From Hyphomicrobiales bacterium (GTDB lineage Bacteria; Pseudomonadota; Alphaproteobacteria; Rhizobiales; Rhizobiaceae), in the NCBI GenBank assembly GCA_900473805.1, contig UCMS01000009.1, positions 1-64,000 of the forward strand: 64,000 nt of DNA, written 5' to 3'. Made by a program: the position numbers and the translations under genes. Within the stretch, counting starts at the first letter, position 1. Every line of letters begins with the position of its first letter. Below are positions 5,797 through 10,014 of the stretch, piece by piece. Under the pieces are notes generated by a model. That model made no database searches and was not told the origin of the DNA. It saw only the letters and a list, made by a program, of their open reading frames with translations.

Positions 5797-6990
5797 ATGA
5801 ACGCCAGCAGCCCCGTCGAAGTTCTTCAAGCCCTGATCCGCTGCCCCTCCGTTACGCCGGCCGAAGGCGGGGCGCTCACGGTGCTGGAAAACCTGTTGAA
5901 ACCGCTCGGATTCGCCGTCGACCGGATGATCGAGCGGGATGTGGATACACCCGACATCGAGAACCTCTATGCCCGCGCCGGCACCGACGGTCCGCATCTG
6001 ATGTTCGCCGGGCACAGCGACGTGGTGCCTGTCGGCGACGAGGCCGACTGGTCGGCCGGGCCGTTTTCCGGCGAGGTGCGTGACGGCATGCTGTTTGGCC
6101 GTGGCGCCGTCGACATGAAGGGCGGCATCGCCTGCTTCATCGCGGCCTATGCGCGGCTGGTGGAGGCCGGCAAGGTGCCGAAGGGCTCGGTGTCGCTGCT
6201 GATCACCGGTGACGAAGAGGGACCGGCGGTGAATGGCACGGTGAAGCTGCTTGAATGGGCGGCTGCCCGCGGCGAGCGCTGGGACGCCTGTCTGGTGGGC
6301 GAACCGACCAATCCGGATACGTTGGGCGACATGATCAAGATCGGCCGGCGCGGCTCGGTGTCTGGCACGGTCACGGTGCGCGGTGTACAGGGCCATGCCG
6401 CCTATCCGCATCTCGCCGACAATCCGGTGCGCGCAGCACTCTCGCTGGCGAAGAGCCTGATGTTCCCGGCCTTCGACGAAGGCACGGAAAACTTCCAGCC
6501 GTCAAACCTCGAAGTCACCTCGATCGATGTCGGCAATGCAGCGACGAACGTGATCCCGGCGACGACCCGCTTCAAATTCAACATCCGCTTCAACGACCAT
6601 TGGGATGCCGACAGCGTCAAGGCGGAGATCCTGCGCCGGCTTGATGCCGCTGCCGTCGATCCCGAGCTTCGGCCGGGTCGTGCGGCGATCGCCTATGAGA
6701 TGGTGTGGTCGGAGCGGCCGAGCCATGTGTTCCTGACCCGCAGCAACAGCCTGATTTCGTCGCTGTCGGGCGCCATCGAAACCGTGACGGGGCGCACGCC
6801 CAAGCTCTCGACCACGGGCGGCACGTCGGATGCACGCTTCATCAAGGACTATTGCCCTGTCGTGGAATTCGGGCTCGTGGGCCAGACCATGCATATGGTC
6901 GATGAGCGGGTTTCCGTCGCCGACCTGGAAACGCTGACGGTGATCTACCAGACCTTCATCGAGCAGTGGTTCGTCCATGCCAACGCTTAA
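5797..6990 (+). CDS. dapE: Succinyl-diaminopimelate desuccinylase
   Basis: A 397-residue M20 metallopeptidase-family enzyme that removes succinate from N-succinyl-LL-diaminopimelate to give LL-DAP for lysine and peptidoglycan. The metal-site motif GHSDVVP and the catalytic glutamate pair in TGDEEGPAVNGT are present, followed by the dimerisation domain and a C-terminal FGLVGQTMHMVDE segment with the last metal ligand. The ATG at 5797 gives the usual N-terminus; a TTG three codons upstream (5788) is possible, and neither has a strong ribosome-binding site. The stop overlaps the start of the next gene by 14 bases, indicating coupling. Confidence 0.96.
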   Translation: MNASSPVEVLQALIRCPSVTPAEGGALTVLENLLKPLGFAVDRMIERDVDTPDIENLYARAGTDGPHLMFAGHSDVVPVGDEADWSAGPFSGEVRDGMLFGRGAVDMKGGIACFIAAYARLVEAGKVPKGSVSLLITGDEEGPAVNGTVKLLEWAAARGERWDACLVGEPTNPDTLGDMIKIGRRGSVSGTVTVRGVQGHAAYPHLADNPVRAALSLAKSLMFPAFDEGTENFQPSNLEVTSIDVGNAATNVIPATTRFKFNIRFNDHWDADSVKAEILRRLDAAAVDPELRPGRAAIAYEMVWSERPSHVFLTRSNSLISSLSGAIETVTGRTPKLSTTGGTSDARFIKDYCPVVEFGLVGQTMHMVDERVSVADLETLTVIYQTFIEQWFVHANA

Positions 6991-7573
6991 GGAAATCGAG
7001 ATCTACCTGAAGGGCCTATGGCTGCTGGTGAAGCAGGATCCGGCCGGCTTTTCTCATCTCGATCTTTCCGATCGGGGCGCCGCGCGCTCCTTCTGGTCGA
7101 TCGCCTGGGCCCTGCCGGCGATCCTTTTGTCTTTCGCCTGGTGGCGTGTGCTGTTCCTCGAAGGACAGGCCACGGGCACGGCGACCGGTCCCCTCTTCTT
7201 TTTCCGGCTGACCCTGGTGGAAGCTGCAAACTGGCTCGTGCCGGTGATCCTGCTCGGTGTCTTGTGCTGGATGGTGGGGCTCGGCGAGAAATTCGCTTCT
7301 CTTGTGGTGGTGATCAACTGGCTGGCGCTGCCGGCATCCTATGCCTATGGCGTGCTGGTGCTGATCATGATGCTCCTGCCCGGCCTCAGCGGACTGGTGG
7401 CGCTTTTGTGGTTCCTGCTGATGGTGACGCTGATCGCCATCCTCTTCCGGATCGTCCGAATGATCGTCGGCGATCACCTGCTGACCATTTCCACCATCGT
7501 GATGGTGGTGCTGGTGCCATCGATGATCCTGGCTGAACTGCTGGAACGCTATCTCGGCGTTTATCCGGGGTGA
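6977..7573 (+). CDS. Multi-span inner-membrane protein of unknown function
   Basis: A 198-residue protein with a cytosolic N-terminal stretch of about 40 residues and five or so hydrophobic segments from about residue 42 to 190, with an overall layout like Yip1-type membrane proteins. The start codon at 6977 lies inside the end of dapE (14-base overlap), so the two are translated together. Family members sit next to dapE in many rhizobia, which suggests an envelope role, but no function can be assigned. A hairpin terminator follows at 7646-7669. Confidence 0.8.
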   Translation: MPTLKEIEIYLKGLWLLVKQDPAGFSHLDLSDRGAARSFWSIAWALPAILLSFAWWRVLFLEGQATGTATGPLFFFRLTLVEAANWLVPVILLGVLCWMVGLGEKFASLVVVINWLALPASYAYGVLVLIMMLLPGLSGLVALLWFLLMVTLIAILFRIVRMIVGDHLLTISTIVMVVLVPSMILAELLERYLGVYPG

Positions 7574-7645
7574 AGCCCTTCTTTTTACTCAGTTCCAGAC
7601 GCAAAACCGCTGCGCACTTTTGCGGTGTTATATAGCAAAGTTAGA

Positions 7646-7669
7646 AGAGGCGGGCCTTAACCCGCCTCT
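7646..7669. terminator. Hairpin between membrane-protein gene and the 80-residue gene
   Basis: AGAGGCGGG and CCCGCCTCT form a 9-bp stem with loop CCTTAA. Convergent genes end on both sides (7573 plus, 7676 minus), so it can end both transcripts. Confidence 0.65.
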
Positions 7670-7675
7670 CTTTGC

Positions 7676-7918
7676 TCAATGTGACGTTGCAATAAGTTCC
7701 TTAGCCTTCGCCTTGGACCCTACGTGCTTTTCACCACGAAACACTTCGCCCAGACGATGAGTGTTGGTGCCGAGTTGTTGTGCGATGATATTGTATTTCA
7801 CCCCCTGCATGCGGAGAAGGTGCGCGGTAACTGCCTCCTCAAAGGTAAGCGCCTTCCGCTCAATGAGGATGGGGTTCATTTCAATCCCCGTCATGGGGTG
7901 CGTCAAAGTGGCCATCAT
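7676..7918 (-). CDS. Small helix-turn-helix-like protein, accessory
   Basis: An 80-residue protein. Residues 25-60 read as a short helix, turn, helix (YNIIAQQLGTNTHRLGEVF) of the kind found in small resolvase- or phage-type DNA-binding proteins. A Lys-rich tail follows. The ATG at 7918 is preceded by AAAGGG, but that site is inside a 7-bp hairpin (7920-7941). It overlaps the stop of an upstream short frame by ATGA. Local base composition is more AT-rich than the flanking core genes, and the gene sits in an insert between the dapE unit and truA. DNA binding is an inference from the helix pattern only. Confidence 0.6.
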   Translation of the reverse strand: MMATLTHPMTGIEMNPILIERKALTFEEAVTAHLLRMQGVKYNIIAQQLGTNTHRLGEVFRGEKHVGSKAKAKELIATSH

Positions 7919-8031
7919 AGCCCTTTCTTCGTAAAAAGGGCCGGCACGGTATTGACGTCTCCCACGACATGAATCATGGTGCCGTGGTGATCACAACGCA
8001 GCCCGTACCGGCTGTTTCGCTCAAGGTCCAC
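7915..8031 (-). CDS. Possible 38-residue small protein coupled to the next gene
   Basis: A minus-strand frame from a GTG at 8031 to a TGA that overlaps the next ATG (ATGA). The product reads like protein throughout, with a central RYGLRCDHHGTMIHVVGD containing one Cys and two adjacent His. The same frame stays open upstream to a stop at 8095-8097 but has no better start. The GTG lies inside the strong hairpin at 8023-8055, and a GAAAGG stands just before the hairpin, about 19 bases away in linear distance. The 4-base overlap with a downstream gene is the main support. Function unknown. Confidence 0.35.
   Translation of the reverse strand: MDLERNSRYGLRCDHHGTMIHVVGDVNTVPALFTKKGL
7920..7941 (-). 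promoter_or_regulatory. Hairpin that buries the ribosome-binding site of the 80-residue gene
   Basis: On the minus strand GCCCTTT pairs with AAAGGGC across an 8-base loop. The second arm contains the AAAGGG ribosome-binding site, and it ends 1 base before the ATG at 7918. Such a fold would hold translation back unless opened, for example by a ribosome finishing the upstream short frame, or by heat. Confidence 0.45.
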
Positions 8032-8055
8032 ACGTGTATCAGACGTGTGGACCTT
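8023..8055. repeat. Perfect 13-bp hairpin
   Basis: AAGGTCCACACGT and ACGTGTGGACCTT form a perfect 13-bp stem with a 7-base loop. On the plus strand TCTATTT follows, as after a terminator; on the minus strand it encloses the GTG of the 38-residue frame. Stem length exceeds that of most intrinsic terminators in this window. Confidence 0.6.
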
Positions 8056-8066
8056 TCTATTTGGGT

Positions 8067-8096
8067 GATTCGCAGGCGCTTTGTCGAATCTTTTTT
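8067..8096 (+). terminator. Weak plus-strand terminator-like hairpin with T-run
   Basis: GATTCG and CGAATC form a 6-bp stem with a 12-base loop, followed directly by six T. There is no plus-strand gene just upstream, so either a small RNA ends here or the fold is incidental. Confidence 0.3.
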
Positions 8097-8283
8097 AAGT
8101 ATCGGCATATTTTGATCGCTGTATACTCACGCCGCGTTTGAGCGCTGCCAGTATACTTTCCAGTGGCGACTTACCGGTGCTCATGCGAATCGCCGAGCAG
8201 AGAGAAGGCGTTAGCGCCATTCTATCGGCGGCGATGGTCTCCACCCCGTTTTCGGCTGGTACGTTTGCTACATAACACCGCAC
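8095..8283 (-). pseudogene. AraC-type helix-turn-helix remnant
   Basis: Just after the truA stop, in another frame, the translation carries VETIAADRMALTPSLCSAI followed by GKSPLESILAALKRG. This matches the first helix-turn-helix of AraC-family regulators (a segment like LAxxxxLSxxxLSRxFKxxxGxSPxxYL). The protein then stops at 8095, before the second helix-turn-helix, and no ligand domain precedes it. The frame has only a GTG (8283) as a possible start and no ribosome-binding site. It is best read as a decayed gene fragment in the accessory insert, though a one-helix small regulator is possible. Confidence 0.35.
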
Positions 8284-8299
8284 TTCGGTTGAAATTGCT

Positions 8300-9070
8300 T
8301 CAAATATCCGGCTGCGGTTCGTCGCCGGGATAATCCACCCGCATGAAATAAAGCCCTTCCGGGGGCGCCACCGGACCGCAGGCGGCGCGGTCGCGGGCTT
8401 CGAGTGCTGCGCGCACATCCGACGGCGTCATCTTGCCCTCGCCGGCCAGCTTCAGCGTTCCGGCAAAGGAACGGATCTGGTTGTGCAGGAAGCTTTGGGC
8501 GCTGGCGCGGATCTCGATGAGGTCTCCGCGACGGGTGACATCCAGGCGGTCGAGCGTGCGGACCGGGCTTGCCGCCTGGCAGTGGGCCGAGCGGAAGGTG
8601 GTGAAGTCGTGGTGGCCGACGAGCTGCTGGGCGGCCGCGTGCATGGCCTCGTGATCAAGCGGCTTCGGCACCCACCAGGCGCGGTTTGCCTCCAGCGCCA
8701 AGCGGGCGGGCCGGTTTATGATGCGGTAGAGATAATGGCGACGGAGTGCGGAGAAACGTGCGTCGAAATCATCCGGCGCGGCCTGGACGTCGATGATCGA
8801 GACCTGCTCGCCGGCCTGGGCCAGATGGGCGTTGAGCGCGTTGCGCAGCTGGTAGGGCACCCAGGCGCGTGAGAGATCGGCATGAATGACCTGTCCCATG
8901 GCATGGACGCCGGAATCGGTGCGGCCGGCGCCTCTGATGACGACAGTTTCGCCGGACAAAGAAAGGATCGCAGTCTCGAGGGCCGACTGCACGGAATGGC
9001 CATTGTCCTGGCGCTGCCAGCCGACATAGGCGGTGCCGTCATATTCGACGATCATGCGGAAGCGAGGCAT
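8300..9070 (-). CDS. truA: tRNA pseudouridine(38-40) synthase
   Basis: A 256-residue enzyme that converts uridines 38-40 of the tRNA anticodon arm to pseudouridine. The catalytic aspartate is D52 in the motif [11 protein letters not shown], and the RxxY-type segment and C-terminal [11 protein letters not shown] helix match the family. It begins at 9070, overlapping the fmt stop by 1 base, and is the last gene of def-fmt-truA. Length and start are normal. Confidence 0.97.
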
Positions 9071-10014
9071 CAGGCGATCACCGTGCCCTTGGGGAGCGGC
9101 GTGCCGCGTAGGAAATCCTGCGCGTCGAGAGGCTTACCACCGGCCTTCTGAAGGCGCACGAGGCTGACGGCACCGGTGCCGCAGGCGACGGTCATAGCAT
9201 CGTCAAGGACTGTACCGTGGGCGCCGAGATGACCATCTGCTGCGGCGAGATGCGAGGCGAGCAGCTTGACGCGTTCCGGCTTGCCGCCGAGCTCGATCTC
9301 GGTCCAGGCGCCCGGGAAAGGTGCCAGACCTCTGATATGGTCGTGGACCTCGCGTGCTGGGCGGGAGAAATCGACCCGTGTTTCTGCCTTGTCGATCTTG
9401 GCGGCGTAGAGCACACCTTCTTCCGGCTGAGGCACGGTTTCAAGCGTGCCCTTTTCGAGGTGCGCCATGGCCTCGACCATGGCCTCGGCGCCGACGAGGC
9501 TCAGGGCATCATGCAGCTCGCCGCCGGTCATGTCGGGGGCGATCGCGATCTTGCGGGTGAGCGCGACGGGGCCGGTGTCGAGGCCCTTGTCCATTTTCAT
9601 CACCATCATGCCGGTCTCCGCATCGCCGGCCATGATGGCCCGCTGGATGGGGGCGGCACCGCGCCAGCGCGGCAGCAGCGAGGCATGACCGTTGTAGCAG
9701 CCGAGCCGTGTGCCATCGAGAATGGCCTGCGGCAGAAGCAGGCCATAGGCGACGACGACGGCGACATCGGCATCCAGCGCTGTGAAGGCTTCGCGGTCGG
9801 CGGGGTCACGGAAATTCAGCGGGTGGCGAACCTCGATGCCGAGCTCTTCGGCGGCCTGATGGACCGGGGATTTCTGCAGATCGAGGCCACGGCGGCCGCC
9901 CGGGCGGGGTGGCTGCGAATAGGCGGCGATGATCCGATGACCGGCGGCGTGCAGCGCCTTGAGGGTGGCGACGGAGAAGGCCGGCGTTCCCATGAAAATG
10001 ATGCGCAATGCCAT
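9070..10014 (-). CDS. fmt: Methionyl-tRNA formyltransferase
   Basis: A 314-residue enzyme that formylates initiator Met-tRNA using 10-formyl-tetrahydrofolate. The formyl-transfer motif [11 protein letters not shown] with its preceding NGHAS segment (catalytic Asn and His) is present, as is the C-terminal tRNA-binding OB-like domain from about residue 210. It follows def by 54 bases and overlaps truA by 1 base. The pairing with peptide deformylase in one unit makes functional sense: one adds the formyl group, the other removes it. Confidence 0.97.

Follow-up and report, generated by a model that had tools for sequence, protein, structure and literature searches.

A putative antisense-controlled leader before a small HTH-type gene, carried by a decayed IS1595-type transposon next to truA

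The window analysed here, a 64,000-nt stretch of Hyphomicrobiales DNA, contains two very small overlapping frames and three hairpins beside truA, raising the question of what this unit is and how its larger gene might be controlled. The first-pass annotation read it as a translationally coupled small-regulator switch in an insert between dapE and truA. Our analysis favours another form of control. With a probability of about 0.6, the unit combines a small HTH-type gene, a leader RNA with two alternative folds and a cis-encoded antisense RNA, which together would form a translational switch of the ctRNA kind.

The small gene and the insert that carries it

The gene and its surroundings comprise the following features:
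7616-7623, no strand: candidate left target repeat ACTTTTGC, with a right partner ACTTCGGT at 8282-8289 (from sequence)
7624-8281, no strand: decayed IS1595-type transposon remnant carrying the leader and gene (inverted ends; alignment with the L012 element)
7646-7669, minus strand: 9-bp hairpin 3' of the 80-aa gene (7646-7654 with 7661-7669), possibly its terminator (inverted repeat)
7676-7918, minus strand: gene for an 80-aa small HTH-type protein, with an alternative ATG start at 7913-7915 (relatives; AlphaFold model)
8127-8246, minus strand: residual 3' end of an IS1595-type transposase gene (DNA alignment to L004, transposase ORF 314-1288)

Judged by its relatives, the 80-aa gene is real: proteins of 69–88% identity are encoded in six genome contigs (Rhizobium oryzicola, Shinella granuli, Pseudorhizobium tarimense, Jiella sp., Rhizobium sp. 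C4 and a MAG) and one of 75% in an IMG/VR contig. A distant relative (47.5%) occurs in Paracoccus phage Pben1. The protein is rare: at E ≤ 1e-8, 4 of 394 genomes from the family and 4 of 397 from the order have a match, and both counts include the window's own genome. Its AlphaFold model has five helices at a mean pLDDT of 81.5, and the HTH-type assignment rests on this model together with a sequence pattern. A PDB search with the model returned no significant fold (best match E 0.38). The best Pfam hit of the protein, DUF2774, scored 14.3 bits against a cut-off of 29.2, no Pfam model rose above its cut-off in five relatives, no NCBIfam model reached its cut-off, and PHROGs gave E 0.01 at best. 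The gene described in the first-pass annotation thus stands on its relatives, and its helix-turn-helix character on pattern and model, with no family or PDB match at cut-off.

The insert around the gene has terminal inverted repeats as in IS1595 elements, GGTGTTATATAGCAA at 7624 and an inverted copy at 8265-8279 with one mismatch in 15. Over 579 columns of a DNA alignment, window positions 7668-8240 are 77.7% identical to the L012 element (JAIBEK010000053.1, the same contig as L004), which has ends of the same kind and an intact transposase ORF upstream of the same leader and gene. An 8-bp target repeat is typical of IS1595 transposons. The L012 element is flanked by ATTTCCGC on both sides (8/8 identical, by eye), and the window pair ACTTTTGC/ACTTCGGT is degenerate, with 4 of 8 positions identical. 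Since its candidate target repeats are degenerate and little of the transposase gene is left, the copy in the window is a shortened, decayed IS1595-type transposon. The earlier claim that an accessory small-regulator unit had been inserted between core genes is therefore borne out, by a transposon remnant adjoining truA.

In a sister element, L013, the transposase matches PF12762 (E 1e-37) and carries the zinc ribbon PF12760; the window retains a remnant alone. L013 also encodes DUF6471 (5e-30) and a Clp-protease-like gene (1.4e-17). L031 has the same frame order as the L013 element (by eye), but a different HTH-type gene. Searching the window's genome with the L013 transposase gave no match, but the remnant was missed too, so this is weak evidence. 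The lineage resembles IS1595 (ISXO2-like) transposons in PF12762 and PF12760 of L013, in its inverted ends and in the 8-bp repeat of L012. It differs in carrying DUF6471, the Clp-protease-like gene and the leader-HTH cassette as passengers, and the window copy differs further in lacking most of the transposase.

Some observations concern the wider lineage (L012 5086-9564, L013 about 5809-9230, and L031). Besides the transposase, its recurring genes are a DUF6471-like gene, the leader-HTH cassette and an ERIRDRL-type gene of ~150 aa (in L031 by eye); the Clp-protease-like gene was noted in L013 alone. DUF6471 was not mentioned in the papers searched. By eye, the L012 and L013 elements both seem to interrupt a glycosyltransferase-like gene. 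In the window, the insert splits a short repeat sequence at 7579-7623, which looks like an interspersed rhizobial palindrome and of which the genome search returned one further copy (G000 C34 82431-82475, 82%). The degenerate target-repeat pair lies within this repeat sequence.

Leader helices and the 38-codon frame

Upstream of the gene, four helices can be placed:
7919-7942, minus strand: P5, the ribosome-binding-site hairpin (inverted repeat; own-partner test)
7940-8012, minus strand: P3, a long-range helix of 8003-8012 with 7940-7949 (covariation; own-partner test)
7962-7987, minus strand: P4 hairpin, CCACG/CGTGG (covariation; own-partner test)
8023-8065, plus strand: P2, a 13-bp hairpin at 8023-8055 with a 7-nt loop, followed by TCTATTTGGG and terminator-like on this strand (inverted repeat; covariation; wobble)

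The region also holds a GTG frame of 38 codons (7915-8031, minus strand), which shares an ATGA with the 80-aa ORF (7676-7918, minus strand); both frames and their overlap are present in the sequence, as first described. ATGA is found at the start codon in 19 of 40 leaders. Of the 12 leaders closest to that of the window, three (L012, L013 and L035) carry it, preceded by 24, 3 and 2 open codons, respectively, with no start codon; it is missing from L010, L014, L016, L017, L021-L023, L027 and L031. Four distant leaders do have a started frame ending at ATGA, of 29 (L067), 14 (L071), 20 (L077) and 83 codons (L073). The DNA under the 38-codon frame is conserved while the frame itself is lost, and the aligned DNA of relatives contains indels.

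We therefore reject the 38-codon frame as a gene, there being no started frame at this place in the near relatives and hence no upstream frame kept as a leader peptide would be. Homologues exist for the 80-aa protein, at the 69–88% given above, and the shorter frame is missing from the near relatives. In the coupling model, a ribosome ending the 38-codon frame would open the hairpin over the ribosome-binding site of the 80-aa gene. The ATGA overlap and this hairpin are indeed found in the window. However, with the frame absent from near relatives, indels in the aligned DNA, and base pairs changing on both sides in ways that keep the helices, coupling through this frame is unsupported, and we regard it as very improbable. 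The 80-aa gene has this DNA as its structured leader, conserved upstream of it where the frame is not.

All three hairpins of the first-pass annotation are present: a perfect 13-bp inverted repeat (8023-8035/8043-8055, the P2 stem), a 7-bp hairpin (7920-7926/7935-7941, inside P5) that holds the ribosome-binding site as proposed, and the 9-bp hairpin behind the gene (7646-7669). That hairpins here matter beyond chance is apparent from covariation, and not from a pattern scan alone. In alignment A4 (12 rows, with the structure taken from the window's row), P2, P3 and P4 together have 51 double-change cells, compared with 17.0 (sd 3.3) after shuffling (0/500). Double changes affect 16 of 28 pairs (10.0 shuffled), 89.5% of cells are paired (76.1% shuffled, 31–40% slid), and the covariation score is 0.453 (0.206 shuffled, 0.05–0.12 slid). 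One of the five measures, further pair types, was not above shuffles (30 against 28.7; 168/500). An earlier alignment, A1, had double changes in 15 of 32 predicted pairs. Column covariation of P5 in A4 was not above shuffles, and its support comes from the own-partner test instead.

In this alignment-free test, each strand was scored against its own and permuted partners in 24 diverse leaders. P3 scored 24.29 with its own partner and 15.53 with permuted ones (maximum 18.60), P5 15.40 and 11.87, and P4 13.54 and 11.31 (0/10,000 in each case), and two pairs of control regions did no better than chance (5588 and 1953 of 10,000). The 24 representatives, like the 28 used below, were chosen by eye and still include related leaders, for example those of the window, L016, L021 and L027. 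The own P3 strand was the best partner in 16 of the 24. P3 is weak, the own partner falling outside the first four of 40, in L010, L052, L053, L005, L006, L008, L064-L067, L072, L073, L075 and L081; in the window it ranks fifth of 40 because near copies pair as well. All four helices, P2 to P5, are shown by comparison of the leaders to be maintained.

The 3' strand of P3 and the 5' strand of P5 overlap by 2–9 nt in 21 of 24 leaders (the exceptions being L067, L005 and L053), so that the two helices are mutually exclusive; in the window they share 7940-7942. By inspection, the 3' strand of P5 contains or adjoins the purine-rich ribosome site. A further hairpin, P1 (GATTCG..CGAATC), was dropped because two GANTC sites explain its sequence as well.

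The predicted antisense RNA and the proposed switch

On the opposite strand and upstream of the leader, we distinguish:
7952-7980, plus strand: predicted antisense promoter, with TTGACG at 7952-7957, a 17-nt spacer and CATGGT at 7975-7980; GAATC (GANTC) at 7971-7975 (recurrence in leaders)
7987-7994, no strand: conserved palindrome GTGATCAC at the predicted antisense start, a candidate operator (recurrence in leaders)
7987-8062, plus strand: predicted antisense RNA of ~75 nt, complementary to the P3 5' strand and to P2 (from promoter-like boxes and terminator-like hairpin)
8067-8090, no strand: two GANTC sites upstream of the leader, 8067-8071 and 8086-8090 (from sequence)

Of the 40 leaders, 30 carry TTGAC on the antisense strand, 28–52 nt ahead of the start codon, and none carries it there on the sense strand. 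Among the 28 representatives, 21 have it; shuffled sets gave 0.69 on average and 5 at most. A -10-like box 16–18 nt further on scores 3.64 compared with 2.49 (0/2000 shuffles), and in 13 of the 21 its second base is A and its sixth is T (3.8 shuffled, 0/2000). Five of the ten leaders without TTGAC have TTGAA nearby and one has TTGAT. The -10 boxes of the window class are poor, and a strict consensus scan of 7600-8320 found no promoter. GUCAA could be conserved as RNA instead of as a promoter. A pattern scan of the same interval gave one terminator-like site where 0.9 were expected, which is no excess, and the hairpin at 7646-7669 is absent from its terminator-like sites. The palindrome GTGATCAC lies exactly 35 nt after the TTGAC start in 11 of 25 leaders, and L021-L023 have GTGAATTCAC. 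Following P2 on the plus strand is a T-rich tail in the window class; this tail is poor in L048-L050.

The strand on which each helix exists as RNA can be read from its wobble pairs. In 26 leaders with a visible P3, chosen by eye, with G-U and A-C scored alike, the gene strand has 28 G-U and 8 A-C pairs in P3, 15 and 13 in P5, and 1 and 25 in P2, the departures in P2 being mostly in leaders outside the window class and many of them at the stem foot. From these counts, P3 behaves as sense RNA and P2 as antisense-strand RNA. The conserved antisense -35 box, the terminator-like hairpin and the exclusion between P3 and P5 lead us to favour control by an antisense RNA.

The same leader could instead act purely in cis, P3 and P5 being governed by a ligand as in a riboswitch, by a protein, perhaps the HTH protein itself, or by temperature. 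P3, P4 and P5 are supported independently of an antisense RNA, TTGAC is missing from the antisense strand of 10 of 40 leaders, and the conserved GTGATCAC and GTCAA could be contacts. Against this stand the joint enrichment of TTGAC and -10 box with TTGAC in 0/40 on the sense strand, the antisense-strand wobble of P2, which is followed on the same strand by a T-rich tail, and the finding of no Rfam family at cut-off in the leaders searched. We consider control without antisense RNA rather unlikely.

The loop of P2 occurs as CTGAACC in L010, L012 and L023 and as the reverse complement, GGTTCAG, in L017, L021 and L031, with near forms in the window, L013, L022 and L027 and other loops in L014, L016 and L035. 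L021 and L023 share one stem with opposite loops, as if the hairpin had flipped.

These two orientations could point to a function at the DNA level, with palindrome and hairpins serving as binding or recombination sites of a mobile element and the RNA structure incidental. The unit does sit in a transposon remnant, and its palindrome GTGATCAC is not explained by the RNA fold. However, the wobble is strand-specific, and a plasmid, prophage-like regions and chromosomes also carry units with no such transposase noticed close by, which makes a function in DNA alone improbable.

For an antisense RNA, the proposed sequence of events is as follows. RNA polymerase would make ~75 nt of RNA from the antisense promoter to P2, and pairing of this RNA with the leader would occupy the 5' strand of P3. 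With P3 blocked, P5 would close over the ribosome site and the protein would be off; with the antisense RNA absent, P3 would form, P5 would be weakened and the protein would be made. More speculatively, the HTH protein may act on the palindrome at the antisense start to repress the RNA directed against it, a positive feedback.

The antisense footprint (about 7987-8062) covers the P3 5' strand (8003-8012) and not P5. Blocking the footprint in folding raised mean P5 pairing across 26 leaders from 5.2 to 8.3 bp and lowered mean SD accessibility from 0.41 to 0.35, with lower values in 14 and higher values in 6 of the 26; in the window itself, accessibility rose from 0.30 to 0.37. Mutually exclusive folds, one of them hiding the SD, are thus present by sequence in 21 of 24 leaders, and the modelled effect on the SD is small and mixed. 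As a consequence, we infer the direction of control chiefly from the P3/P5 overlap and the precedent of repABC.

The window unit may still work within its decayed transposon. Alternatively, this copy is a dead remnant and the leader works only in others, as the loss of most of the transposase and, weakly, the genome search with the L013 transposase would suggest. The 80-aa frame, P2–P5 and the -35 box are nevertheless intact here; we regard a dead copy as a genuine but somewhat unlikely prospect, and one compatible with the antisense reading.

GANTC, the CcrM site, is over-represented both upstream of P2 (-230 to -140 from the start codon) and close to the antisense -10 box (about -60): we counted 35 sites at -180 to -140 (5.4 expected; 20 of 36 leaders), 17 at -230 to -180 and 16 at -100 to -50 (6.7 expected in each), and no enrichment in the other six bins, these counts not being independent because related leaders were counted separately. 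A GANTC begins 19 nt after the TTGAC start in the window, L010, L012, L013, L014 and L017 (the window class) and in L070 and L074, and 23 nt after TTGAA in L005, L006, L008, L052 and L053, so that it lies between or over the two promoter boxes. In the leader class L005-L009, L052 and L053, which belongs to the same protein family, P3 was not found; those read (L005, L006, L008, L052 and L053) have TTGAA, and GANTC replaces the -10 box.

Spread of the leader and relation to known systems

The leader design recurs before related genes elsewhere in the order Hyphomicrobiales. The same leader precedes a different, 66-aa HTH-type gene on Rhizobium gallicum plasmid pRGM101a, the one plasmid record in which the leader DNA was found, and other HTH-type genes in L031 (66 aa) and L035 (62 aa); the leader DNA had no match in the phage collection. 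RNA model R1 matched 14 of 297 genomes at E ≤ 0.01. Beside the window's own locus (L030) it gave 16 loci, of which we read 13 (L031-L043) and left out L044-L046, L044 being the opposite strand of the window's leader. Among those read, L031, L032 (= L016) and L035 precede an HTH-type gene and ten do not; most R1 matches are lone hairpins.

Protein profiles reach further, finding small HTH-type genes with leaders of other sequence in 12 of 297 (P0001) and 45 of 347 genomes (A2). The A2 search provided a hold-out of 26 loci (L063-L088), found by protein profile alone; 16 further places were given no locus, and L059-L062 repeat earlier genomes. We judged 15 of the loci to be small HTH genes, of which 10 have TTGAC and 7 a P3 with shuffle p ≤ 0.05. 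The other 11 are longer or different proteins or frames unlike the family, with possible starts in L078, L079, L080, L082, L083 and L085; here TTGAC occurs in 4 (L078, L080, L085 and L086) and P3 at p ≤ 0.05 in 2 (L079 and L088), giving 14 and 9 for all 26. In two order-level genomes (L024, L025), the leader-HTH unit lies in prophage-like regions with a PD-(D/E)XK nuclease and an S24-type repressor. Upstream of the unit in L010 and L015 lies a frame of 407 aa whose match to phage integrase is weak (19.2 bits, cut-off 27.1).

A far broader proposal is that these loci form an unnamed class of antisense switches across Hyphomicrobiales transposons, prophages, a plasmid and chromosomes, made bistable by a protein that represses the antisense RNA at the palindrome, tied to replication through GANTC and CcrM, and kept from cross-silencing by inversion of the P2 loop as a pairing specificity. 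Taken as a whole, we consider this unlikely. If the antisense reading is true, a recurring RNA switch has been read from strand-specific covariation alone, and a tiny HTH-type family below every Pfam and NCBIfam cut-off gains a regulatory context. Antisense control, if shown, would carry ctRNA-type logic, familiar in these bacteria from the replication of repABC plasmids, over to the small regulators that transposons and phage-like elements bear. Being small, self-contained and mobile, the switch is directly testable with reporters.

The titles and abstract beginnings of the literature searched held no description of the leader-HTH unit. The window's leader and those of the loci searched had no Rfam match at a family's cut-off, and we reject membership in any such family; the Rfam ctRNA model had no match at E ≤ 5 in window positions 7500-8400, and its match to one leader (26.5 bits, cut-off 45) was dismissed as chance level. 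We likewise reject membership in repABC, since none of the adjacent frames that were read was recognised, by eye or from record annotation, as a rep gene.

In the leaders named above, the predicted antisense promoter has a GANTC between its -35 and -10 boxes, a feature shared with methylation-dependent GcrA/CcrM promoters. In Caulobacter this arrangement is associated with one cell-cycle promoter class (PMC4287350), and GcrA binding, that of the S. meliloti protein included, depends on GANTC methylation (PMC3667746). In contrast to such promoters, many leaders here have no GANTC at that place.

With the rhizobial repABC ctRNA, the unit would share an antisense RNA gene inside its target's leader and an alternative hairpin. 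A large stem-loop in the repC leader leaves the SD free when the ctRNA is absent, and an intrinsic terminator forms when it is present (PMC3155836); the hairpin here covers the ribosome site and has no U run. The target also differs, being an HTH-type gene of 62–80 aa and not repC, and the contexts are mostly transposon, phage-like and chromosomal. The predicted arrangement also resembles RNAII/CopG copy control of pMV158, which combines an antisense RNA against a leader with a DNA-binding repressor (PMC4485353). Whereas the target there is a replication initiator, the predicted target here is the small protein itself.
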